Shown: piece after piece, positions 4,371 through 16,734 of the stretch | Layout: each line of letters begins with the position of its first letter | Position numbering within the stretch: position 1 is the first letter of the stretch | Assembly: GCA_003157445.1 (NCBI GenBank) | Contig: PMJN01000407.1 | Span: forward strand, 1 to 16,734 | Source of the DNA: Micrococcales bacterium | GTDB lineage: Bacteria > Actinomycetota > Actinomycetes > Actinomycetales > Dermatophilaceae | DNA length: 16,734 nt | Reading direction: 5' to 3' | Position numbers and translations under genes: made by a program | The notes under the pieces: generated by a model | What the model was told of the DNA's origin: nothing | The model's input: the letters and a program-made list of their open reading frames with translations, nothing else | Databases searched by the model: none

Positions 4371-4946
4371 CTAAACGTCGCTGCGGTGGAAGTTCTGGAA
4401 CGAACGACTCGCCGTTGGGCCGCGCTGCCCCTGATAACGCGAACCGTATTTTGCGCTGCCGTATGGATTCTCGGCGGGGCTGGACAACCTGAAGAAGCAG
4501 AGCTGGCCAACCTTCATGCCCGGCCAGAGCTTGATCGGCAAGGTGGCCGCGTTCGACAGCTCGAGCGTCACATGACCGCTGAACCCAGGGTCGACGAAGC
4601 CAGCCGTAGAGTGCGTGACAAGGCCCAGCCGACCAAGGGAAGACTTGCCCTCCAGCCGCGCGGCAAGATGGTCGGGCAGCGTCACGATCTCGAAGCTTGA
4701 GCCCAGGACGAACTCACCCGGGTGCAGGATGAACGACTCGCCACGGGCGACCTCGATCAGTCTCGTGAGGTCAGGCTGGTCCTCGGCCGGGTCGATGAAG
4801 GGGTACTTGTGGTTGTCGAACAGCCGAAAGTACTTGTCCAGGCGCACATCGATACTCGACGGTTGCACCATGGCCTGGTCATACGGCTCAAGGCGCACCC
4901 GTCCGCCATCGATCTCGGCCTTGATGTCACGGTCTGAAAGCAGCAC
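4371..4946 (-). CDS. dcd: dCTP deaminase, probably bifunctional (dCTP deaminase/dUTPase type)
   Basis: This 191-residue protein belongs to the Dcd/Dut trimeric family and produces dUTP or dUMP from dCTP for thymidylate synthesis. From the GTG at 4944-4946 it reads [15 protein letters not shown], the standard Dcd N-terminus, so I prefer that start although a TTG 39 bases upstream is in frame and neither has a strong ribosome site. Key motifs are [11 protein letters not shown] (27-37), [11 protein letters not shown] (99-109), [21 protein letters not shown] (112-132) with the catalytic glutamate at about 129, and the C-terminal lid [16 protein letters not shown]. The [13 protein letters not shown] block matches the mycobacterial enzymes, which are described as bifunctional and release dUMP. 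The gene stands back to back with the tRNA-Gly gene, an arrangement I recall from Mycobacterium. Confidence 0.96.
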
Positions 4947-5048
4947 GCGGACACGGTACCCGGTTGTCACCGAAGGTGGGCTCAAGCGCTCCGCCCGCGT
5001 CGGTTAGACTGCCGACCGCGCCTTCACCCGATGGTGGTCCGCGCGCTC

Positions 5049-5122
5049 GCGGGTGTAGTTCAATGGTAGAACATCAGCTTCCCAAGCTGACAGTGCGGGT
5101 TCGATTCCCGTCACCCGCTCCA
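5049..5122 (+). tRNA. tRNA-Gly (anticodon CCC), island integration site
   Basis: The acceptor arm GCGGGTG (5049-5055) pairs with CACCCGC (5112-5118), followed by discriminator T and an encoded CCA (5120-5122). The anticodon stem TCAGC/GCTGA encloses the loop TTCCCAA with anticodon CCC at 5081-5083, reading GGG. The T arm contains GGGTTCGATTCCC. The gene is intact although an island starts inside it: the sequence from the anticodon loop onward (5079-5122) is supplied again at 15698-15741. This is the classic tRNA attachment site of tyrosine recombinases that exchange strands in the anticodon loop. Confidence 0.97.
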
Positions 5123-5304
5123 AACGCGAAAAACGTTGCCATACATACGAATTGGGCACCATCTCCCATGTGAAATAGCGCCTGTCGGCATCAGAAATCA
5201 GCACTCATGCCATTACCGCGTGCCATTAGCCATGCGGGCGAGACTGTCAGCTCATCGGTGTATGTGGCCCGACACGCTGAACTACCGCTTGGCTCGAACG
5301 GGTC
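5079..5304. repeat. Left copy of the 226-bp terminal direct repeat (att core plus island end)
   Basis: The repeat matches 15698-15923 without gaps at a constant offset of 10,619 bp. The first 44 bp, the tRNA-Gly 3' half with CCA, are identical. The remaining 182 bp differ at about 29 positions by hand count. The repeat covers the tRNA 3' half, the 68-bp spacer and the last 37 codons plus stop of jetD. Similarity stops abruptly at 5304. The exact core is the likely recombination site; the diverged part is best read as the island end next to the core. Confidence 0.9.
5137..5228 (+). promoter_or_regulatory. Candidate integrase arm-type sites, left island end
   Basis: TGCCATTA occurs at 5208-5215 and again at 5221-5228, 13 bp apart start to start, and a shorter TGCCAT lies nearer the core at 5137-5142. 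The same three positions are kept in the right repeat copy. Paired short repeats at a fixed distance from the att core are what arm-binding domains of tyrosine integrases recognise. This assignment is inferred from position and repetition only. Confidence 0.5.
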
Positions 5305-6462
5305 ACATGGCATGGCCATGTCGGCCGTGACGGCTGCCAACGCGACCATGAGAGGGATCCGTTCTTGCTCAACGCGCCGGACACGAGCCCAGTCGGGGTC
5401 GGTCAGCTGCTTGTAGAGGGCTCGTTCTGGCCCAGTTAGCCACCCCAGGTTCTTGCGGGCGGAAACAGCCAGTGGGTTGCCTCGGGCGTCAGTGGAGGAG
5501 CCGAATCGTTCGTAGGTATGGAAGGCGTCGAGGTCCATAAGGATGGTGGACACGGGGACACCCGATCGGCGGAAGAGGTCCACGATCTCGAGCCCGGACG
5601 CGTCCATGTCGCCCCAGTAGATGAGGTGTGGGCATGTGGTGATCCAGCCGAAGGATGCGCAGGCTCCTGCCCCGCCGAAGCCTGCACCTTCCACGGAGAT
5701 GGCGTTGCGCAATGGTGGGAAGTGAATTGCAGTGTCCTTGTTCTCGGAGATGATGACCATCTCGGGACGGTAGGCCGGGGCCATGGGGTCTCCGACTGTG
5801 GCTGAGTCGTGGGTCCTGCCTCCTGCAGCCCGGTGCTCGGGATCCAGGTAGGTGAAGTGCAGCCGTTGGGGGTGCCGGGGTAGGAGCCCCAGGTTGTCAG
5901 TGCCTGCAAGGATCTGCAGCAGCGGCTGGTGACTGTCGAGCCATTTGGCATGAAGTCCTTCAATTGGGACCTGTCGGGGGGTGAGCCCACTGGCAGTGTT
6001 GTGCATGAACCATTCGGCGCTCGAGCACAGCAGGTCGAAGTCGGTGTCGGAGTACCCGTCCACGGCTCTCAGGATCTTTCCGAGGTCGGCAACTTGAGGG
6101 AACCTTGCGGCCAGCTGCTTGGCCTGGGCACGGCCCCGCTGGATGCGGTGCTTCCACCGGATGTCGAGCAGACTCACGGCGGTGTCGAGGTCGGGCACGG
6201 TCAGGTGGGTGGGAATTGACTGGACGGTCCCGCAGACATGCCGGGACGCGAAGGTGAGGTCAAGCCCCTTGTCATCGGCCCAGTCGCGCCACCGGAACAC
6301 CTGCTGTTGGAAGGAGCCGAAGTTGTTTTCCAGGTCGGGCTTGGCGGCCGCGCCCAGAGGGAAGTTGTGCGGCCACGTCGCAGCTTGGGAGGTGATGTCG
6401 TTGTGCCAGGTTCCGGTCACCCTCCGGCGAACGTCCGATAGGACCTGCTCGGGGGTCTTCAC
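5191..6462 (-). CDS. jetD: Wadjet JetD, Toprim-fold nuclease subunit (DUF3322 + DUF2220)
   Basis: This 423-residue protein is the nuclease of the Wadjet system, which cleaves small circular DNA once the SMC-like JetABC complex has extruded it. The N-terminal part ([15 protein letters not shown] to about residue 210) fits DUF3322. The C-terminal part is the Toprim-like DUF2220 with Glu240 in IISENKDT and Asp285/Asp287 in YWGDMDASGLEIVDLF, the expected metal-binding residues, and the family signature RRVEQERIP at 362-370. The start is GTG at 6460-6462, overlapping the jetC stop as GTGA. The last 37 residues (387-423) are encoded by the island's terminal repeat and are probably an accidental extension. 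The gene is last in the jet operon and ends 68 bp from the tRNA. Confidence 0.93.
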   Translation of the reverse strand: MKTPEQVLSDVRRRVTGTWHNDITSQAATWPHNFPLGAAAKPDLENNFGSFQQQVFRWRDWADDKGLDLTFASRHVCGTVQSIPTHLTVPDLDTAVSLLDIRWKHRIQRGRAQAKQLAARFPQVADLGKILRAVDGYSDTDFDLLCSSAEWFMHNTASGLTPRQVPIEGLHAKWLDSHQPLLQILAGTDNLGLLPRHPQRLHFTYLDPEHRAAGGRTHDSATVGDPMAPAYRPEMVIISENKDTAIHFPPLRNAISVEGAGFGGAGACASFGWITTCPHLIYWGDMDASGLEIVDLFRRSGVPVSTILMDLDAFHTYERFGSSTDARGNPLAVSARKNLGWLTGPERALYKQLTDPDWARVRRVEQERIPLMVALAAVTADMAMPCDPFEPSGSSACRATYTDELTVSPAWLMARGNGMSADF

Positions 6463-9400
6463 GACCCCGCACCGTCGCGGGTAGCCAGCTCAGTGATGTA
6501 GGAGTAGCCGGTCTTGGGGTCTTTGGTCATGGACAGGACGAGGTCCATGTGCGGCTCCAACGCGGTGACTTTGTCCAGGGGCGCCCCGACGATGAGCTGG
6601 AAGCCCAGTCCCTGCCAGGCTGCGACCGAACGGCCCGCGAACTCCGAGTCGGACTTCACAAACCCTTCGTCGAGGAAGACGGGGGCGAAACGAGGCCGGG
6701 TGAGGCTGTCGTCACCCAGCTGGAAACGCAGGGCGGCACCGACGATGAATGCGATCAGCTCTTGGGTCTCGCCTCCACTCTTCCCGCCCAGAGATGAGTA
6801 GGAGCTCAGCTCGGTGCCTTCGAGGTCGGTCCGGATGGCGGTGATCTCAACGTGCTTACGGACGTCGAGCAGGTTGTCGCGCACGGCGGTCCCCTTCGCG
6901 CCGTCTTCGGGTTTGCGGATCGAGTTCATGAAGTCACGCAGGCGTGCGAAGTGAGTCTCGGTCTGCTCGTCGGTTAGGTTCTCCGTCGTCCCAGAAGACA
7001 AGGCTTTCAGTTCGGCCCGAAGAGTCGAAACGTCCTCGGTTGGATGCCGGCGCAGGTGTATTCGCAGCCGGTCTCGTCCGGCGCCGAACGGTAACGTCGA
7101 CAGGATCTCGTTTACCGGGTCAAGGCGGCCGATGATCTCGGTGATGGCCGTTTCGAACGCACCGTTCAGAGGCACCAGGTCCTCTCCGCTCCACTCCGAA
7201 AGCCGGCGTCTCCATTCGTGGCGACGCCTGTGCAACCCGGTCGTGAGGATGTTGTTCAGGATCTCCCAGTAGGCCAAGTAGGAGTCAAGGGCAACGCCGA
7301 GGTTCGGGTCGGGCCAGCGGCTCTGAAACTCATTGAAGGCGTGGACGAGGGATTCGGCGGCTTTCCGTGCTTCTTCACGCGCCTGTCGAAATTGGTCCAG
7401 GAGCAGGTCCGTCAGGCGCTTGACCCCGTCAGTGAACCCCGACAGGTCATCGGTCCTGCTTACAGCCGCGAACCCGACATCAAGGCGGGCGGAGTGTTCC
7501 TCGGACAGGGTGACACTCTGGGCCCGGCTGATGCGGTCAGCTTCGTCGCCCACCCCATCCTTGCGGTCCACAAGGTTCTCATATTGAACGTCCAGGGAGT
7601 CACGCTCATCCTCCGCTAGAACCATCACCTTCTGGGTGGCCTTCAGCTCGGGTGTCAGCAGCGCCTCTTCTTCCTTGAGTGCGCGCAGCCGGCTGCTGCC
7701 GGCGAGAATCCGACCGCGGGCAGCGTTCTTGGCCTCAATCTCGCTGTCAACCCCGGCCACGTCGATCGCCGTCCACAAGGTGTCAAGGAGATACTGGTGG
7801 GCTTCCTTGTGCTGGCGCAGGACGGCGATCTTGTTACCGATGCCAGCTTCGCGCACAGCCAGCAGGCCCAGCTCACGGTCCGCCTCCTCGATCTCGGCGG
7901 TAATCTCGCGCAGCCGTGCCTTGTTGGAGAACCCGATGATGTTTGGGGTGTTCATGTCGCCATGAGCGCCGCGTTTACCGTTGCGGGTCTGGCCGGCGAC
8001 CGTTACGCGAGGGCCTCCGCCACCAAGTTCGGACGGCTGTTCCACACACAACGCGTCGGCGTAGTCGGCCTGGACGCGTCCCTGAACCCAGCTACTGAAC
8101 GACGAGTCTTTGAAGATCAGTTTGCCTGAGATGCGGTCCGGGTCGCCGCGAAGGTTCTGGTGCGGCTCAAGGGTCACGCCCTGGAAGTTGATCCGCACCG
8201 GAAGGCGGAGCGGGTCGATGGTCCGGCTGAGGTGGTCAAGCTTTGTTTGGTCCACGAGCATGATGCGTGCCACCGAGGACAGGGTCACCTCGGCTGCTTT
8301 GCGCCACCGTTCCTCCCCTGGGGCAATATCGAGGAGTTCGGCCACGAAGGGCAGGTCTTCGGCCTTGACGCCGGTGGCCTCGGCGATCTTAAGGCGCACT
8401 TCATGCAGGCCTCTGGGGACCAAACCGTCCCGCCCTGACAGTGAATCCCTTTCCTTCTTAAGCCCGCTCACCGAGGAAAGGATCGGGTATTGGGCATCGT
8501 GGATCGTCTTTCGCTGCCCCTCCAAATCCTTCTCAGTGGCGTCAAAGGTCTTCAGGAAGTGCTCGGCGGTGGTCTTCGCCGCCGATAGCGCCTCCGCAGA
8601 ATGGATCGGTATCGAAAGTGGTTCGACGCGCTGGTCGAACATGTCGCGCGCCCGAAGTGTCACCTCGCGCTGGTGATCGAGGGCGTCCAGGTCATCCTGA
8701 ATACTGGCTAGGGCGTCGCCACCTTCTGCCCGCTGCTGGTCCTGCACCTCGTGGATCCGCTTGTTCAGCTTGAGTTCCTGGGCCGCAGCGGCGTCGAACT
8801 TGTCGGTGGCGTCGCGCTGCTTGGCGCGGTTCTCGTCGGAGGCGCGATCGAGCAGCAAGCACTCGGTGCGTAGCCGCCATAGGAGAAACGGGGTATCCCC
8901 ATCGCGGTTTACGCCGAACGTGTCAAGGGTGTTGGCGTTCTCTGTGGCCGTGTCGAAGCGTTCGCGAAGGTCGGGGATCTGCTCGAGCACCTTGGCCTTC
9001 TGGTCTTCAGTGACCATGGCCTCGTAGGACTTCTCCAAGTCGCCAAAGTGGGCGGTAGCCTTATCGGCGGCCGCGTAAGTGGCTGGCACCTCGAGCACCA
9101 TCGACTTGTACAGACCGTCCACCGACCGGACCTGCTGGCCGGCCTGGATGCGGGCCAACAGCCGCAGGGCCTTACTCCCGTCACCGTTGGCGCCAATGCC
9201 GAGCCGGGTGTGCAGGTGCTGCTCGAACGACGCGTAGGTGTCAAACACGTGGAGCTCGGGAAAGCGGGCCTTCAACGTTCGCTTGTCGAACTTAGCGACG
9301 GCGATGCTTTCGAGCTCGCGAAGGTCAAGGAACCCGTCCTTGGTGGCCAACTTCATGCTGATTTCAGCGAACCGCGTGGCTGCACGTGGCACGAAGTAGA

Positions 9401-9833
9401 CCCGTAGGGCGGTGAACCGGCGCTCGTTATCGTCCACGAACGTCATGGCTACCGCACCCCAGGTTGGACAGTCCGCCCCGCGAAGCACAGTATCCTGCAG
9501 GTCCCCGGTACCGGCCGTCCGGCTCGTGTCGGTCTTCCCCCTCAGGTAGCTGAGCACGCTGCGCTGGTCGTCCCCTCGGGCACGTCCGGTCGCGTCCGTG
9601 GAGGCACCATTGAAGGGCGTGTCTGAGGGCATCATCAGGGCGAGGTACGCGTCCATCAAGGTGCTCTTGCCGGTACCTGACGCACCGGACAGCAGTGTGC
9701 CCATCCGAGCCCAGGCCACTGCGTGGTGACCTTGGAAACCGCCCCAGTTGACTACCTGAAGGGTTTCGGCCTTCCACTGCGTGGTTCCCTCGGTCGCACC
9801 CTGGATGTGCAGGAGTGGTTGGTCGATCAACAT
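6459..9833 (-). CDS. jetC: Wadjet JetC, SMC-like ATPase
   Basis: This 1124-residue SMC-type ATPase is the motor of the Wadjet complex. Walker [10 protein letters not shown] is at about residues 50-58. Long charged, heptad-like segments follow either side of a hinge-like middle region (about 490-635, containing [20 protein letters not shown]). The C-terminal head has the ABC signature KSGGETQ (about 1018-1024) and Walker B PVFLDEGF with the catalytic glutamate near 1056. I take the ATG at 9831-9833 ([16 protein letters not shown]) because a GGAGG lies seven bases upstream; the longer open frame adds 28 arginine-rich residues with no support. It begins just before the jetB stop and overlaps jetD. 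It matches the COG4913-type JetC proteins of type I systems. All ATPase motifs look intact. Confidence 0.94.
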
Positions 9834-10531
9834 GTGGTCGCCTCCGAGTTGAGCTCGTCCGTACCGTGTGCGTCGTCGTTGGTGCTGACAGCCTCGCCGT
9901 TCTCTGTAGCCAGCCACTCCGCTAGCTCACTCAAACGTTCAATGGGCAGAAGGACTTCAATGACGGGTGAGATCCGGAACCGGTCATCGCCTGCCTTCGC
10001 CAAGATGCCGGCCTTGAGAAGGGCGTCCACCGCGTTGTCAGCCTTGCGTGCGTCCCCCGAACGGTCCGTGGCGTGGGCGGGACGGAACCGCTCAACGTTG
10101 GACACCATGTCCTCGCGGTCCACCAGGACCATGTCGTGACCCTCTGCGCGGACGCTGCGGAACCGTCCGCGTAGGAAGACCAGCAGGATCGTCTCCTCAC
10201 GGGAGTACGCCACGTCGTGAAGGAGCGTCGGGAAACGTCCGCCAACCTCCGGCTGAGCCTGGCGCTTGAACGCAACCTCGTAGTTGCGGTCCACGTGCAG
10301 ATCCAAGAACAGGTCGTTGAGCCTGGATGTGATCAGGCGTTCTGACACCAGGAGCGTCTGCCACTCGGCCGGCTGCTGGGAAGCACTGATGTACCGGTTT
10401 CTTATCAGCGCCACCAACGCCTTGCGCTGCTCCAGTGTCAGACGGCCGCCATCTTCGGCGAACAAGGACAGACTGTACTGCTCAACCTCGCCATCCAGGT
10501 CGGGGTCTTCGTTCCATTTGTCAGTCATCAC
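9827..10531 (-). CDS. jetB: Wadjet JetB, kleisin-associated winged-helix subunit (DUF4194)
   Basis: This 234-residue protein fits DUF4194: an acidic N-terminus ([20 protein letters not shown]), then [29 protein letters not shown], followed by the conserved [26 protein letters not shown] and [18 protein letters not shown]. In Wadjet, JetB acts as the KITE-like partner that binds the kleisin JetA and helps load DNA. Two starts are possible. The GTG at 10529-10531 overlaps the jetA stop and lies nine bases after AAGGA. An ATG three bases further in would leave one residue less. It overlaps the start of jetC by seven bases, so translation of the operon is coupled. The acidic last 25 residues look disordered. 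Confidence 0.92.
9841..9845 (-). promoter_or_regulatory. Ribosome binding site that fixes the jetC start
   Basis: GGAGG on the minus strand, seven bases before the ATG at 9833. It lies inside the end of jetB and decides for the 1124-residue form of JetC over the longer open frame. Confidence 0.75.
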
Positions 10532-12024
10532 GATGTTCGGTCCTTAAGGTCGACGAGCGACGCGGTGTCGTCTTCGTTCAGGGTGATTCGCGGCACGGTG
10601 AAAGTTCGGCGGGTGTCATCGGGCCGGATGGCTTGAAAGGACTCCGTGTCGGTGATCTGGTCCAGCACCCCAATTTCGCGTGCCATGTCCAGCAGGCCGA
10701 GAATCTCAACCGGACGGCGCAGGCCCTCCTCCAGGTGGTTGAACGCGCCGCCGACTGTAACCGCGCCGCCGACCGTGAACGCGTCAAGAACTGCTTGGCG
10801 CATGTCGTCCAGCAGCGGCCCGCCTTGCTTGCGGATGTCAGCGAGGCTGAGCGGCGCCGGGGCATCTCCGGACACGTCATCCAGTGGCGGCGGAGGGGTG
10901 TCGGACTTCGGATCGTAGAAACGTTCCCGAAGATGCTTGACCGCCGGCGGGTCCGGCATGAGCTTGACCGGAACGGCCGATCGCGGCCCAGCCGTCTGCA
11001 TCCAGGTGGCCAGGCCCTTGCCGATCTGACGAAGGAGCTTCTCCAGCTCTCGGTCTTTGACCACATCATGGTTCTCGATGTGCTCACGCAACGTGGCGTT
11101 CGCCCGGCGGCGCCGGTTCAGCACCCTGTCTAGGCCTTGGCTCAGGACCAACACAGTGCCACGAAACTCTCGCTGCTCGCCGGGGGTGAGACCGGCCGCG
11201 AACGGGTGTTCCAGGATGGCCTCCAGATCGTTCTTCAGGTCCAACATCAAGGCGTCGTCACGCAACAACGTGAATGCCCCGCCGAACGCCCGGCCCTCAG
11301 CGGTACCTGACATCAGCGTGTCAGTCTTGGCCAGGTACTCATCCAAGACTTCTCCAATAGGGCGCTCCTCCTCACGGAAATCGCTGATGATCCGGCGATG
11401 CATCGCCTCGACCGACTCCTCGACCCGTTTGAAGTCGCTCGGGAGCTGGGCGATGAGGTCGATCAGGTTGGCGTAGCCGTCGATCATCCGGTCGTCGGAG
11501 GCGGCAACAATCTCACCCCCAGCGTTTAGCCGCTCACGTTCGCTGGTTTTCTCGGCAATCTCCTCTTCAAGGCGTCGGATGCGGACCTCGCGGTCAGGGT
11601 TTGCCTCCGTCGCCCACTTACGGACAGTCGACAAGATGGTCGCCAGTCGGGACTCGCTGATCAGCGCCCGGTCCTTGCTCATGCTGTCCACCAGGGACTT
11701 CGCCTCCAACGCATGCGACGTCAGCGAATACTGTTCCTCGCCGTTCTCGGCTGTCGCCCGATACAACCATTGGTCGTTCATCCATTGCAGACACAGCGCA
11801 CGGCCGCCGAATCCGGGAACATCCACCCCGACCGCGCGCAGCTCATCCATGTAGGTGTCCACTTGGGCGTGCAACCGGTCAGCCTGGATACTCTGCTGAT
11901 CACGGCTGAACGAAGACTTGAACACCGCCAGTACGAAGGGCGCCCACTTCCGGTCCAACAACCGCAACGTGGGCTTGTCGAAGGCTCCGCGCACCCGCGC
12001 GAGTTCCCCCTCGATGTCGCTCAT
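10528..12024 (-). CDS. jetA: Wadjet JetA, kleisin-like subunit (DUF3375)
   Basis: This 498-residue protein matches the DUF3375 family of type I Wadjet kleisins. The opening [32 protein letters not shown] (9-40) is the characteristic N-terminus, followed by [59 protein letters not shown] (a coiled segment) and [25 protein letters not shown]. The C-terminal quarter looks like a winged-helix domain. JetA closes the ring formed with the JetC dimer and carries JetB. I start at the ATG at 12022-12024, with GGAAGG about nine bases upstream; an in-frame GTG 42 bases earlier would run through an inverted repeat and lacks a ribosome site. It is the first gene of the jet operon. Confidence 0.93.
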
Positions 12025-12048
12025 TCCCGGCCGCCTTCCACTTAGTCT

Positions 12049-12065
12049 TGCCGACTCCGTCGGCA
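12049..12065. promoter_or_regulatory. Perfect 7-bp inverted repeat just upstream of jetA
   Basis: TGCCGAC and GTCGGCA are separated by TCC, 25 bp before the jetA ATG. A dyad this tight and this close to the start could be an operator or an mRNA hairpin over the leader of the jet transcript. No binding protein is known. Confidence 0.5.
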
Positions 12066-12197
12066 CAGTCCGCCGGCCCCATGGAGAGTATCGTCCGGCT
12101 CTGACACCACCCCCGACAAATCAGCCCAGGCCGATTCCCGTCCGGACTTCTCGGGCCGAGACCCAACGCGCGACTGCCACCACCGCCGGGGAGACAT

Positions 12198-12271
12198 GTT
12201 GTCACCGGCGACACGTGCTAACACTCATCCACAGGTTCTTGCCGCCTTCCGGCAACGTTCTTGGTGACAAC
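12198..12271. promoter_or_regulatory. Nested inverted repeats in the divergent promoter region
   Basis: GTTGTCACC (12198-12206) and GGTGACAAC (12263-12271) are perfect inverted 9-mers 56 bp apart. Inside them lies a second dyad, TTGCCG (12239-12244) and CGGCAA (12250-12255), with a five-base loop. A two-site operator for a looping repressor, or a structured transcript, would look like this. Function is inferred from geometry only. Confidence 0.4.
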
Positions 12272-12625
12272 TAGTGACGCTTCAACATGGACGGGTACTT
12301 GTCGCTTCTTAGCAGATGAAGAACCAGACGGCCGGACTGCCGCGGAGACACCATCCAAGGCGTTCAAACGCAGGACCCGACCAAGAAGAGCGCGGCATGT
12401 TTCGCGGAGACCGTGGGGCCGCTCTGATGACCGGTGTCCCTGTCGCCGGCGAGCAAGTGATCCTGGGTCGAGGGCTCGCAGTTGGCGTGCGTGTGCCGTC
12501 GTTCGGCCCGGCCGGGTGAAGCCGCACGCCCGTGGCCAACCCTTGCAGCGTGGCTGTCGGTGCACCGCGATAGAACTATCTCGGAATCGATCGACAGGTG
12601 TCTTCGTGCGCTTGCACCCACTAGA

Positions 12626-12644
12626 CTGCTACTTTTCTGCTACT
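12626..12644 (+). repeat. CTGCTACT direct repeat, 11-bp period, before the three-gene operon
   Basis: CTGCTACT occurs at 12626-12633 and 12637-12644, one helical turn apart, just upstream of the ribosome site. It could be a regulator binding site, possibly for the helix-turn-helix protein of the same operon, or it may overlap the promoter. Confidence 0.4.
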
Positions 12645-12649
12645 CAGTT

Positions 12650-12656
12650 AGGAGGG
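12650..12656 (+). promoter_or_regulatory. Ribosome binding site that fixes the start of the TIGR04255-family gene
   Basis: AGGAGGG is followed four bases later by the ATG at 12660. The open frame extends about 130 codons further upstream, but those codons do not look coding and this is the only strong site. Confidence 0.75.
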
Positions 12657-12659
12657 ATC

Positions 12660-13514
12660 ATGACCGAGCGGACTACTCCCGGCGCCACGGACGGCGACGA
12701 ATGGGACATCCCTCTGGGAGGTCTGGCGGGGCTTAGCCGAGTTCAGCTCGAGCGAACCCACCTTGAGGCGGCCGTGGCCGAGGTCCGTTTCCTCAGCGTG
12801 CGGTCGGAGCTCCCCGAAGACGAGGCGGTCTCCATTTGGAAGCAGCTCGGTCAGGACACGTTCCCCGTGTTCGAGACGCACGTGCAGAACATCCTCAATG
12901 TCACGGTGGGGCCTCGAGGCGCGACGCAGTCGACAGACGCGCAGCGGGGATGGGTCCTGGCGAACGCAGACCGCACCTCTTTAATCACCCTGTTGCCGTC
13001 GACGGTCGTCGTGCAGACGAATTCCTACAGTCGCTACAGCACCAGCCTTGGCGACCCGCTTCGCAAGGTCCTCGCGCTCTTTACCGAAGTGACCGGTGCT
13101 TCGGTCGTCCAGCGGCTGGGGCTGCGGTTCATCAATAAGGTTGCCGACCCAGCCGCCAAGTCGCCACTGTTTTGGCGCGACCACATTCGCAAGGACTTCG
13201 TAGGCCCACTCTCGGGGGAACTCGGCGGTCTAGTGTCCAATCTGCATCAGCAGGTGCAACTTCAACTCGACGCTACCGCGACAGCACGGATCCAGAGCGG
13301 AGTGTTTCTCGAACAAGGTGCCCCGCAGCGCTACAGCTTCCTGATCGACCTGGATGTCTTCCGGGATCGTTCTCTTACCTATGACGACACGGTATGCGCG
13401 AACTTGGTCCGCCAACTCAACAGAACCGCCTTGGCGCTGTTCGCGCACGTACTCTCCGAGAAATACCTTGCCGACCTTGGGCCCGTCGATCTGGATAGGA
13501 GGAAGACGCAATGA
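12660..13514 (+). CDS. TIGR04255-family protein, first gene of the three-gene operon
   Basis: A 284-residue soluble protein with the layout I know from TIGR04255, a sporadically distributed family of unknown function. A short N-terminal region leads to LERTHLEAAVAEVRF (30-44), then WVLANADRTSLITLLPSTVVVQTNSYSRYSTS (98-129) and the family hallmark VQRLGLRFINKV (150-161), followed by a longer beta-rich half. No catalytic motif, membrane segment or signal peptide is visible. It starts at ATG 12660 after AGGAGGG, and its stop overlaps the next start as ATGA. Its place in a tightly coupled operon beside a Wadjet system on an island suggests defence or a conflict function, but this is context, not proof. 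The family assignment comes from memory of its motifs. Confidence 0.78.
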   Translation: MTERTTPGATDGDEWDIPLGGLAGLSRVQLERTHLEAAVAEVRFLSVRSELPEDEAVSIWKQLGQDTFPVFETHVQNILNVTVGPRGATQSTDAQRGWVLANADRTSLITLLPSTVVVQTNSYSRYSTSLGDPLRKVLALFTEVTGASVVQRLGLRFINKVADPAAKSPLFWRDHIRKDFVGPLSGELGGLVSNLHQQVQLQLDATATARIQSGVFLEQGAPQRYSFLIDLDVFRDRSLTYDDTVCANLVRQLNRTALALFAHVLSEKYLADLGPVDLDRRKTQ

Positions 13515-14203
13515 GCACCATGACGCCGACCGCTACGGCTGACATCTTCGGCATCGCCCAGGACATCGCCAATCGGTTCCGACGGTTCTCCCAGACCACC
13601 CTCATCGTCGGCAACGTCTCCAACGAAGTCGGGAGAGTCATCCGCGGGTGGGATGAATCGGTTTACGCCGACCTTCAAACGATCCCCCTCCACGAACCGG
13701 TGAAGCGGGACGCCGGTCCTTCGTTACTAACCATGCCGAATGAACCCGCCGACGCAGTCGACCATATCGCCGAACTCCTCGGCGTTCCTCATGAGCGAGC
13801 TGTCGAGGCCGCCCAGGTGGCAACACGCACCTATTATGGCTGGAGGAGCGGCCGTCGAGCCCGTCCGCAGAGCCTCGGCCGGCTCTGGCCGATGACTGAA
13901 GCGATCCACTACATGGCGCGCGCTAACGACAACCTCACCGCTTGGTTCCACAGCACTCCCGCAGCCCAACGGGCCTTCGATGCTGGCGACGTCGACACAC
14001 TGATTCAGCTCGAGTTGGACTGGGCCATGCGCAGCTATCCCCGGCATGATCCTGTAGCCCCAGATTTCGGCGACGGTCCATCGCTGCCAGATGGAGATAC
14101 AGCCCCTGTTGAGCCTGAGCCTGCGCCGAGGGGGCGGCGCCTGCTGAAATCGGGCAATGTCGCCAAGGTGACGTTGACTCCGCGTACCGCTCGCGAGTCA
14201 TGA
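13511..14203 (+). CDS. Helix-turn-helix protein resembling Xre/MbcA/ParS-type antitoxins
   Basis: A 230-residue soluble protein. Residues 81-122 (DAVDHIAELLGVPHERAVEAAQVATRTYYGWRSGRRARPQS) read as a helix-turn-helix unit. The following 123-170 (LGRLWPMTEAIHYMARANDNLTAWFHSTPAAQRAFDAGDVDTLIQ) resembles the C-terminal domain of Xre/MbcA/ParS antitoxins (DUF2384-like), including the W-(F)-x-x-x-P and small-helix pattern. The N-terminal 75 residues are unfamiliar, and the tail is proline- and arginine-rich. An AGGAGG lies eight bases before the ATG, and both ends overlap neighbours by four bases. The usual RES-domain toxin partner is not here, so this may instead be a DNA-binding or regulatory subunit of the trio. 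It might bind the repeats in the divergent promoter region. Confidence 0.6.
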   Translation: MSTMTPTATADIFGIAQDIANRFRRFSQTTLIVGNVSNEVGRVIRGWDESVYADLQTIPLHEPVKRDAGPSLLTMPNEPADAVDHIAELLGVPHERAVEAAQVATRTYYGWRSGRRARPQSLGRLWPMTEAIHYMARANDNLTAWFHSTPAAQRAFDAGDVDTLIQLELDWAMRSYPRHDPVAPDFGDGPSLPDGDTAPVEPEPAPRGRRLLKSGNVAKVTLTPRTARES

Positions 14204-15261
14204 CCGAGCCGGAAAAGTCGACTGACCAAAACGGGGAGGCTACCGCGTCGGCCGAGGTCCCACCGGCCAACGATGCTGAATCGTCCGCGAAGCCAGTGAC
14301 TGAGGGCGGAGTCGGTCCCGAGCGGTGGTCGATCTATGACGCAGTTCCGGACGACTGGACGGAGTTCCGGGAGTCGCTTGGACGGTGGAAGCAGGGCGAC
14401 CTTGTCGCGGACGTTCCCCCGACATGGCTTACGGGACCTGGCGAGGACGTCATCACCGGGGCGAGTAACGACAGGCCCGAAATCCTTCCTCTTATCGACC
14501 CGGACGTCCGTGTGACAGCCGTTATCTGCACGCAAACCTGTGACCTTGGAGGCACACCACCGGGGAGCGCTCAGCCGTTCGTCCTCCTGGCTCCGCTCGT
14601 TCACGAGTCGTGCATCCCCACTCGTGCGGACAGGACGCTTGCGCGACAAGGCAAGATCGGACACCTGGTGAGAACCCACTCACCCGCGGGCGAAAAAGTT
14701 GTGGCCACCGATGACACCCAAGCGGCTGAGACGATCGCTGATCAGATCGCTGAGGCGGAAGAGTTCTGGTACGCCGACCTTCGATTGATCTTTCCCGCGT
14801 CGAAGGCGCTGCTGCTCGATCGTGACCCCGCGCAAGGCTTCGACGGCGAGGCCGACAGCCTCGCGTTCGGCGAGATCTTGGCGCAGAAATTCCGTCGCGC
14901 CGCGCTCAACGAGGTACTTTCCGAAGATTTACCCAAGGAACTTCGCAAGTTTGTAAAGGATAACGGTCATCGCAAACCCTGCTTCGCCAGCGTGGAGCAG
15001 GTGCGGCTCATCACGCATGAGGGGACGCGACTCCTCCCAGCCCGAGCCACCCTCCTCGTGCTTACGGACGGTCTCGCACTAACCGACGACGAACGCGCCG
15101 TCTGGACACGGTTCCAAAAGGGTGCCGAGAGACTCTTCACAAGACACAACATCCGACTTGGGCCGATGCTTCACGCCGACGTCAACAAGCTCTCGGCCGC
15201 GAGGTACAGGGAATCCGTGCCTGTGCGGTGCGACCTCCTTGGCTCCGTCAACTGGCCATAG
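14200..15261 (+). CDS. Uncharacterised 353-residue protein with CTQTCDL motif, third gene of the operon
   Basis: I do not recognise a named family. The first 40 residues are low-complexity and probably disordered. A folded region begins at WSIYDAVPDDWTEF and contains WKQGDLVADVPPTWLT, then VRVTAVICTQTCDLGG (103-118) and PFVLLAPLV (126-134). A helical second half includes EEFWYADLRLIFPASKALLLDRDP and FGEILAQKFRRAALNEVL. I have the impression of a wider group of bacterial proteins with an (S/T)Q(S/T)CD(I/L) motif, an aliphatic VLAP strand and an ALARKFGR-like helix, but cannot name it. Two conserved-looking residues, Cys110/Cys114 or Asp115, might be functional. It is translationally coupled to the gene before (ATGA) with no separate ribosome site and is the last gene of the trio. 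Confidence 0.7.
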   Translation: MTEPEKSTDQNGEATASAEVPPANDAESSAKPVTEGGVGPERWSIYDAVPDDWTEFRESLGRWKQGDLVADVPPTWLTGPGEDVITGASNDRPEILPLIDPDVRVTAVICTQTCDLGGTPPGSAQPFVLLAPLVHESCIPTRADRTLARQGKIGHLVRTHSPAGEKVVATDDTQAAETIADQIAEAEEFWYADLRLIFPASKALLLDRDPAQGFDGEADSLAFGEILAQKFRRAALNEVLSEDLPKELRKFVKDNGHRKPCFASVEQVRLITHEGTRLLPARATLLVLTDGLALTDDERAVWTRFQKGAERLFTRHNIRLGPMLHADVNKLSAARYRESVPVRCDLLGSVNWP

Positions 15262-15697
15262 GCGGTCAAGCCTGCTCCGAGTCTCGCTCACACCCCAGTG
15301 TGGGAAGGTCCGAACCGCGGGACAACGTCCGGTAGCCACGATGCAGGCGACAGGTGTCAAACATCTACCGATGCTGGACTTCCAAGGATCAACCAGAGAA
15401 AAGGTCGCAGGGTCCGCGACTCAGCGTCTGTGGGTCGATTCGGTGCCCCTGCTTTCGGGCGAGCACACTCGTGCGCCGTCCGGCCGTGCTTCGCCGTCCG
15501 CGAGATGCCACCGACCTCGCCAAGAAGGTTCGCACCCAGGACTGCGAAAGCTGGGCGACTCGTTCTATCAGTCGACTCGAATCTCCGGCTCCGTGCCATT
15601 AACGTGCCATTACGGCAGGCATCCGCGGGACACTCCAGGCCGCTCGTGACCGCGAAACTCGCAGGGGACCAGGCACAAACCCTATGAGTTCAAACAG
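15262..15697. other. Non-coding right end of the island; no gene seen
   Basis: These 436 bp run from the stop of the third gene to the att core. Open frames here have no ribosome site and lack protein-like composition, and I found no integrase remnant. It contains a weak CACAC/GTGTG hairpin at 15289-15302, the palindrome GACAGGTGTC at 15349-15358 and paired TGCCATTA motifs at 15594-15612, about 90 bp before the att core. Confidence 0.55.
15594..15612 (+). promoter_or_regulatory. Candidate integrase arm-type sites, right end of the Wadjet island
   Basis: TGCCATTA at 15594-15601 and 15605-15612, each preceded by CG(T), sits 86-104 bp left of the internal att core. Together with the pair on the core's other side it gives an arm-core-arm arrangement, as in an attP or a tandem-island junction. 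Confidence 0.5.
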
Positions 15698-15923
15698 TTC
15701 CCAAGCTGACAGTGCGGGTTCGATTCCCGTCACCCGCTCCACACGCGAAAAGTATTGCCATACATACGAATTGGGCGCCATCTTTCATCTGGGGCGGCGC
15801 CCGGTGGCATCAGGAATCAGCACTCGTGCCATGACTGCGTGCCATTACCCATGCGGGCGGGACTGTCAGCTCATCGGTGTAAATGGCCCGACATGCTGAG
15901 CTACGGCTTGGCTCGAGGGGGTC
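15698..15923. repeat. Right copy of the 226-bp terminal repeat; att site with tRNA-Gly 3' half only
   Basis: Positions 15698-15741 repeat the tRNA-Gly sequence from the anticodon loop to CCA exactly. The tRNA 5' half is absent, so no tRNA is made here. The following 182 bp match the DNA beside the tRNA with about 29 substitutions and no gaps, including a diverged copy of the last 37 codons of jetD (SSACRAIYTDELTVPPAWV) ending at the equivalent stop at 15810-15812. Similarity ends at 15923. Confidence 0.9.
15756..15847 (+). promoter_or_regulatory. Candidate integrase arm-type sites right of the internal att core
   Basis: TGCCAT at 15756-15761, TGCCATGA at 15827-15834 (one mismatch) and TGCCATTA at 15840-15847 occupy the same positions relative to the core as the three motifs beside the tRNA. 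Their retention inside an otherwise diverged repeat suggests selection. Confidence 0.45.
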
Positions 15924-15948
15924 GACATAACCGAGAAACGGTTGGACG

Positions 15949-16412
15949 TCAGTCCAAGCCCTCCAGACATTCGATGCCCGCCGGGTTGGAGGTTTGGGAC
16001 TGAATCGCCGCAACCAGGCCGGGGAAGCCCAGAGCTAGACGGGCACGGTCCTCGGGGCCAGCGCAGATGATGGCAGTGATGAGGTTGCGTTTGAAATCGC
16101 CGCACTCGCATTCACCATCGTGTTTGAGATAGCCGCAAGCGTCGCGGACGTCGCTGGGATTGACATGCATGTGGTCCATGGTTTCCGTTCGGCGCTGGGG
16201 TAGGGGCGACTGGCGAAGGGCGGCCACGAGGAACAGCACCCGCGACATCCCCGGCAGGACGTCCAGGGGGTCCGCTCAGGGTCGTCGTGGCGGGTAACCG
16301 GCTGGCGCATCAAGACCATAAGGTCCCAGTCGTCACGGTCTTGAGAGGGGTGACGCCGGCCAGTCAACTGTGTGCGGGCGTCAGCCACGGCGTCGAAAAC
16401 GAGATCCCGCAC
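15949..16412 (-). pseudogene. Frameshifted small hypothetical gene right of the internal att site
   Basis: Two overlapping minus-strand frames join into one plausible product if a single C is added to the C5 run at 16266-16270 (G5 on the plus strand). The first part reads VRDLVFDAVADARTQLTG...DDWDLMVLMRQPVTRHDDPERTP. The second reads LDVLPGMSRVLFLVAALRQSPLPQRRTETMDHMHVNP and then GYLKHDGECECGDFKRNLITAIICAGPEDRARLALGFPGLVAAIQ. Both parts have GC-rich third positions. Alternatively only the second part is translated, from ATG 16179 (76 residues). The product has a CxC pair and resembles small hypothetical proteins of actinobacterial mobile elements; I cannot assign a function. The proposed GTG start at 16412 has a GGAGG only two bases away, so the true 5' end is uncertain. 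Confidence 0.5.
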
Positions 16413-16734
16413 CGCCTCCAGTGCCCGGTCGCCGTTCCGTTACCAACGAACCCTAATTGACTCTCGACGCCGCCATCTGCAGGCACGTGGCATCGCGCGG
16501 AACGAGTTACACCGGCCCGGGGCTGCGGATGGCGTGCCTGGTGACTCATGACAGCCACAGCAGGATGGGTACGAGGACGACCCCCCGACAAGCCAGTGCG
16601 TGTTTGTCGTGCCGCGACGCTGTACCCGCACCAGGTCTTGAGGTGGTTGAAGGCGCGTTAGACAAACGCGTCGCTTCTCGGAGCGTGCGCCCTTAGGAGA
16701 ACTGTGATGGGTAGGCGCATCGTCGACGTGTAAG
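16413..16734. other. Window end; no convincing gene
   Basis: No open frame here has both a ribosome site and protein-like composition, apart from an eight-codon frame at 16707-16733 (MGRRIVDV) that follows AGGAGA at 16695-16700. CGCGTT at 16654-16659 and AACGCG at 16665-16670 form a hairpin just upstream. The region may be the leader of a gene beyond the window. Confidence 0.4.

Follow-up and report, generated by a model that had tools for sequence, protein, structure and literature searches.

Actinomycete integrative and conjugative elements (AICEs), which are pSAM2-like, excise as circles, and integration at the anticodon loop of a tRNA gene is a known mode of insertion. Cis-mobilisable elements (CIMEs) carry the attachment sites attL and attR and build up by tandem accretion. 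Wadjet systems cut small circular DNA. In this study we analysed a window of 16,734 nucleotides, the complete contig C281 of a Micrococcales (Dermatophilaceae) draft genome (G000; 3.8 Mb, 551 contigs, 68.6% complete), in which a 10,619-bp unit at positions 5079-15697 carries an apparently complete Wadjet operon of type I (jetABCD), predicted to act in plasmid defence, between two copies of the 3' half of a tRNA-Gly(CCC) gene next to dcd. Comparisons were made with three sister genomes of the genus (G001, G002 and G003) and with a family set of 186 genomes. The unit was probably inserted as a non-autonomous AICE derivative by an integrase supplied from another element.

The anatomy of the unit combines features of several described systems. 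Like AICEs, it has a tRNA 3'-half core (44 nt, with the whole tRNA at the left and the half at the right) and adjacent paired repeats, and its left end is homologous to that of an integrase element in a sister genome (G001:C55); unlike them, it gave no match to an integrase family, nor to RepSA, FtsK or GntR (Pfam, seven reading frames of the unit). As in CIMEs and other integrase-less islands, attL and attR are both present, no recombination gene was found in the unit and elements with the same core lie beside it, whereas the AICE-type ends and a right-end module common to units with different cargo set it apart from CIMEs. The operon agrees with type I Wadjet in having the four subunits, each with its expected domains and motifs, but its jetD frame ends in the left-end stretch of the element, and the element that carries the operon has relatives for which a circular form is expected. 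Integron gene cassettes offer an analogy only, as small exchangeable units stacked at one site, whereas the units seen here have tRNA-half cores with flanking repeat pairs.

The direct repeat that bounds the unit (5079-5304 and 15698-15923) extends over 226 nt without a gap at 87% identity, with a spacing of 10,619. All 44 bases of the tRNA part are identical, the chance expectation for exact 44-mer repeats in a sequence of this size with equal base use being 4.5e-19. The initial annotation had described a Wadjet island at 5079-15741 with an exact 44-nt repeat of the tRNA-Gly(CCC) 3' half at both edges; these coordinates proved correct, and the position of the Wadjet genes between the tRNA copies, with the whole tRNA at the left, was confirmed by Pfam, PADLOC and ARAGORN. 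It had also described a further 182 bp as matching without a gap, and had taken the repeat to define the unit to the base. This extension is indeed free of gaps but only 84% identical (153 of 182 bases), and it appears to be the left end of a further element and not the island boundary. Repeat identity begins at tRNA base 31, two bases 5' of the anticodon. A crossover in the anticodon loop, as proposed earlier, fits this arrangement because the different right ends described below match the tRNA exactly from base ~31-33 onward and diverge before it (read by eye). The core-to-core unit is densely coded, with 93% covered by seven reading frames (Table 1).

Table 1. Annotated features of the window, in order of position.
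Feature	Coordinates	Strand	Basis and remarks
dcd, dCTP deaminase	4371..4985	-	Pfam DCD; chromosomal left flank, divergent from the tRNA
tRNA-Gly(CCC), whole	5049..5122	+	ARAGORN; sole tRNA called in the window; bases 31-74 form the left attachment core
Left attachment core, 44 nt, anticodon loop to 3' end	5079..5122	+	Repeat comparison
Left-end module	5123..5238	+	Alignment and shuffle; homologous to four genus left ends leading into an integrase gene or gene part
jetD	5191..6462	-	423 aa; Pfam JetD_C, DUF3322; PADLOC; motifs SENKD, GDMDA
Left direct-repeat pair ATGCCATTA / GTGCCATTA (second copy 5220-5228)	5207..5228	+	Overlaps jetD 3' end
jetC, SMC-like	6459..9833	-	Pfam, PADLOC; Walker A, signature and Walker B present; start at 9833 is our choice, open frame extends to 9917
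jetB (DUF4194)	9827..10531	-	Pfam, PADLOC
jetA (DUF3375)	10528..12066	-	Pfam, PADLOC
Cargo gene 1, TIGR04255 family	12261..13514	+	NCBIfam 9.1e-26, match from residue 167; no Pfam or PADLOC match
Cargo gene 2, 230 aa	13511..14203	+	No family above cut-off; 4-nt overlap with each neighbour
Cargo gene 3, 353 aa	14200..15261	+	No family match; present in 2 of 186 family genomes including own
Right-end module R1	15579..15697	+	Aligned with six other places
Right pair GTGCCATTA-AC-GTGCCATTA	15593..15612	+	Pattern match
Right attachment core, tRNA 3' half without 5' half	15698..15741	+	Repeat comparison
Left-end module of a further element (putative), GTGCCATTA at 15839	15742..15923	+	Sequence comparison

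Each end of the unit has a repeat pair, separated from its core by 85-106 bp, and by analogy these pairs are putative integrase arm sites. The GTGCCATTA motif occurs four times in the window, always on the plus strand and always inside an end module. When the left end of the Wadjet unit (core through pair) was aligned with four other left ends of the genus, scores of 77-105.5 were obtained against maxima of 52-63 in 500 shuffles (z 5.9-10.8). An integrase lies behind each of the four aligned ends, at full length in G001:C55, as the second half only in G001:C182, as the last ~80 residues in G002:C230 and as the last 21 aligned residues before the contig end in G002:C108. The integrase frame in C55 and C182 stops at the repeat pair or a few bases from it, and the window has the jetD frame overlapping the pair at this position.

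The right-end module R1 (~107 bp from pair to core) aligns in seven places across the draft and the sister species: C281, C206, C400, C12 and C296 (the last without a core) in the draft, G002:C293, and G001:C182, which runs into Ns. Upstream of the R1 pair the sequences diverge, except that C206 follows the window for ~180 bp more. The exact pair pattern was found in two of the 186 family genomes with five matches, all in end modules (one without a visible core owing to Ns), and the reversed control gave none. By eye, at least four further types of right end can be distinguished before the core at other places in the genus, and several of these have short repeats of their own. Ends and cargo appear in these comparisons as separate modules. 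A phage origin was rejected, as the R1 pattern had 0 matches in viral_contigs.

The Wadjet unit is best explained as a non-autonomous integrative element derived from AICE-type elements at tRNA-Gly(CCC) beside dcd. It would have kept the cis targets of an AICE-type tyrosine integrase, namely the tRNA-half core with the anticodon loop as the likely crossover and the paired repeats, while jetABCD and the three cargo genes would occupy the place of int, xis, rep and tra. It would have reached the site through the integrase of another element, either in trans or in a composite with a neighbour. We infer that an AICE-type integrase moves it and that it can still move. The draft has 21 PF00589 matches, all on contigs other than that of the window, the seven reading frames of the unit belong to other families or to none (Pfam, NCBIfam), a PHROGs scan of the three cargo frames only gave no integrase, and no replication or transfer genes were found in the 10,619 bp. 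Because no integrase was found in it, the unit should not travel by itself; the earlier picture of a travelling island stands for the att-bounded Wadjet unit and not for independent movement.

The same site is occupied differently in the sister genomes. Similarity to the left flank of the window, at 76-89% identity, extends over most of 5 kb in G002:C108 and G003:C273, and over 0.9 kb in G001:C55. Past the tRNA, which is partly Ns in G001, an integrase element is present in G001, the last integrase codons are followed by the contig end 241 bp on in G002, and the G003 contig ends 3 bp on. Since the dcd/tRNA flank is conserved in all three and the content after the tRNA differs where visible, the comparison of sequences argues for insertion at the tRNA. 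The empty dcd/tRNA-Gly(CCC) site that the initial annotation had proposed as a check was not seen in the genus, the G001 site being occupied and the other two ending as described. The G001:C55 element encodes Phage_integrase, HTH_17, RepSA (1.2e-149), WhiB, FtsK_SpoIIIE, GntR-UTRA and NUDIX proteins, which we take to be a pSAM2-like AICE set, and the autonomous form at this site is an AICE.

Similar occupants were found outside the genus. Relatives of a draft integrase on C66 adjoin tRNA-Gly(CCC) or its core in G001 (two contigs), G002, G004, G009, G019, G027, G028 and, in part, G030. The six of these genomes from outside the genus were picked by eye for two core matches near each other. In all six, a whole tRNA-Gly(CCC) is followed 6-33 kb later by a copy of its 3' half, and an integrase match (partial in G030) lies no more than ~150 bp from the tRNA. 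Matches to the integrase, HTH, RepSA, WhiB and FtsK were obtained in G004, and to the same set without RepSA in G009, G019 and G027. The left and right ends have a common 9-19-nt motif at the pair positions in G004, G027, G028 and G030.

A total of ten copies of the tRNA 3' half were found on five contigs of the draft (two each on C281, C206 and C296, three on C400 and one on C12), of which only the window copy at 5049-5122 is inside a whole tRNA. The island is thus not alone, which the initial annotation had not recognised. Core spacings are 10,619 bp (C281), 12,775 bp (C206), 2,941 and 864 bp (C400) and 3,103 bp (C296), and the C400 core at 49586 is shortened to 32 nt. On each of the four multi-copy contigs all copies have one orientation, head to tail, and on this basis we interpret 15742-15923 as the left end of another such element. 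We infer that the core-bearing contigs form one array at one locus, in which the Wadjet unit seems to be one of several blocks stacked at tRNA-Gly(CCC).

A repeat-induced joining error, or a simple tandem duplication by unequal recombination between modules, could produce such copies in a draft that is split into 551 contigs and contains many short repeats of this type. We regard this as highly improbable, for the right junction recurs in C206 (window 15402-16544, 95.9% identical over 1,145 bp), the two modules are not identical (29 differences in 182 bases), and a whole tRNA with a 3'-half copy is seen in the six other genomes, three of which are assembled in 1-9 contigs. The head-to-tail cores, the several end types on one contig and the presence of integrase elements at this tRNA in sister species also suit an accretion and mobilisation model that overlaps with the preferred explanation, in which the unit moves only in a composite with a neighbouring integrase element. 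Neighbouring ends carry different repeats, though, and no integrase of the draft was found beside a tRNA-Gly(CCC) core among those seen, and we consider exclusive movement in cis unlikely.

Several observations weigh against insertion of the Wadjet unit by a foreign AICE integrase. No integrase with an exact GTGCCATTA pair at its end was found in the four genus genomes (34 match rows, of which 30 loci were inspected, two of them cut off at the end of the gene), and no RepSA match was found in the draft. The integrases at tRNA-Gly(CCC) carry GTGCAA- or TAACGAT-type pairs, and the closest approach to the pair of the Wadjet unit (17-18 of 20 bases) is found with integrases at tRNA-Ala(TGC). Among the left-end scores, that of G001:C55, the only full-length integrase element at the site in the genus, is the weakest (z 5.9); ends of G009 and G019 have no common exact motif at the pair positions, where pair-like repeats were seen by eye; and the core-bearing contigs are unjoined to each other in an incomplete, fragmented draft. 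An integrase element with an R1 right end was likewise not found in the genus search, and the repeat motif of the left-end homologues also differs.

Because neither an integrase with the exact pair in the genus nor RepSA in the draft was found, the unit might be a dead remnant, that is, an ordinary AICE which, once inserted, lost int, xis, rep and tra, received the jet and cargo genes through homologous recombination and is now inherited vertically. The end of jetD would agree with this history. Its last ~30-40 codons lie inside the left-end stretch common to other elements; the protein has 423 aa against 395 aa in the nearest relative, with an alignment gap at the tail, and in five other relatives the alignment runs as far as residue 370-387, leaving 13-22 aa before their stop, compared with 36-53 in the window. 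Decayed members were also observed among the related elements, namely the 32-nt core of C400, the core-less R1 piece of C296 and the cut integrases of G001:C182 and G002:C230. On the other hand, the two cores are identical along all 44 nt, and neither end has a damaged repeat pair. R1 modules sharing one pair adjoin cargo of different kinds, which a single loss would not give, and JetC was found in none of the three sister drafts (79-96% complete). We therefore hold the remnant to be rather unlikely, and prefer insertion of an AICE derivative by an integrase provided from elsewhere.

The four jet genes overlap and form one operon on the minus strand. All four type I subunits were identified both by Pfam (DUF3375, DUF4194, SbcC-like/MukB-like, and JetD_C with DUF3322) and by PADLOC (JetA1, JetB1, JetC1 and JetD1). 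JetC has Walker A, GGKSGGE and FLDEG motifs, and these and the JetD motifs SENKD and GDMDA mark an ATPase and a TOPRIM domain, respectively. The JetC family search returned 30 rows outside the draft, of which 21, at 20 loci, were examined and the nine weakest omitted. Neither the core nor a match to the query integrases was found at any of the 20 loci within 6.7-20 kb, so a general tie between Wadjet and tRNA-Gly(CCC) was rejected. The initial annotation had held that jet genes away from this tRNA in relatives would count against the island; as far as these stretches reach, they do lie away from it at all 20 loci, which is no disproof of insertion of the window unit. A plasmid origin was also rejected, with JetC matches in 15 of 72,556 plasmid records, all below 60% identity. 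At two other Wadjet loci of the family (L171 6433-7604 and L182 11021-11461) the aligned part of jetD lies 57 and 113 bp, respectively, from a tRNA gene (Ala GGC and Ser TGA).

In a wider and more speculative reading, tRNA-Gly(CCC) of the genus would be a stacking site for integrase-less conflict cassettes, from a 0.86-kb PemK/MazF and RHH block to 12.8 kb, with AICE-type ends that resident AICE integrases move in trans. Wadjet would occur there without int, xis and rep because its nuclease would attack any autonomous circular form of the element itself; plasmid defence would thus force its carrier to abandon the circular life style, and might turn on the AICEs that share the site. We regard this reading as quite improbable as it stands. 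The unit gives a concrete anatomy for a plasmid-killing system that possibly spreads without a recombinase of its own, borrowing the ends of conjugative elements at one tRNA. If it moves, it does so with borrowed enzymes, and its cargo cuts small circular DNA while its relatives excise as circles, which raises the puzzle of how the Wadjet unit survives its own transfer and whether it excludes AICEs competing for the site.

Conflict genes may be stored more generally in the stack, because the gene pair of one block is also found elsewhere. This 864-bp core-to-core block (C400 49586-50450, L010) has two called genes, one for a PemK/MazF-like toxin and one for an RHH protein. Both also precede a tRNA-Gly core in G002:C25 (3332-3942, L071) at 98% and 90% amino acid identity. 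The 12.8-kb block of C206 carries (6694-11290, L009) a 465-aa protein with weak alpha/beta-hydrolase matches, followed by four diverged copies of a small gene, an arrangement which at a guess resembles a toxin with repeated immunity genes; SseB and Ank/TPR proteins are encoded further on. In the window, three overlapping cargo genes (12261-15261) adjoin Wadjet and are possibly a further conflict system. Cargo gene 1 probably starts at an internal ATG, and cargo protein 3 gave no match in the plasmid records.

The dcd survey kept 80 named loci of 581, and in 44 of these dcd and tRNA-Gly(CCC) lie within 1.5 kb of each other. One of the 44 has a second 44-nt core within the 10 kb seen and three, all Streptomyces, have an integrase match, while 40 show neither; five of the 44 contigs end early. 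Partial repeats of 18-21 nt were found at five loci (L098, L101, L132, L134 and L151; four Microbacterium and one other Micrococcales), as copies of the tRNA-Gly(CCC) 3' end 128-441 bp past the gene, and these are possible scars. A right chromosomal flank was sought by comparing the genes of C206, C296, C400 and C12 with 95 loci (the 80 dcd loci and 15 others), and no common neighbour on the tRNA side was found. Homologues of the C400 sulphate-assimilation genes occur near dcd in five Microbacterium-type loci (L094, L127, L134, L151 and L153), on the opposite side of dcd.

Just past the repeat pair, a stretch beginning with GGACTGTCAGCT is conserved between 5239-5309 and 15858-15956, and also in C449 (3849-3947), with no tRNA-Gly core near. 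The motif gave six matches in the four genus genomes at up to three mismatches, four of them in left-end modules (two in C281, one each in C206 and G003:C35) and the others in C449 and G001:C82, where the neighbouring reading frames are not transposase-like by eye (no family scan). The stretch is perhaps an insertion sequence end, but a suspected IS256-type origin was not supported, as the one Transposase_mut locus of the draft (two match rows) is dissimilar. The integrase of C449 was rejected as the matching enzyme, as it ends at another tRNA half (CAT anticodon, by eye) with GTGCCACAA repeats.

The reference integrase on C66 (L028) is itself at tRNA-Ala(TGC). The tRNA-Ala(TGC) integrases of C66 18701-19882 (L187), L188 and L190 have GTGCCATC(T/A)ACGTGCCACTA pairs, the closest found to the Wadjet pair. 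Finally, C296, which carries two of the tRNA-Gly cores, also encodes NifH and two Oxidored_nitro proteins (19448-24760; L011, L042), and an HMGL-like protein in this nitrogenase region may be NifV.

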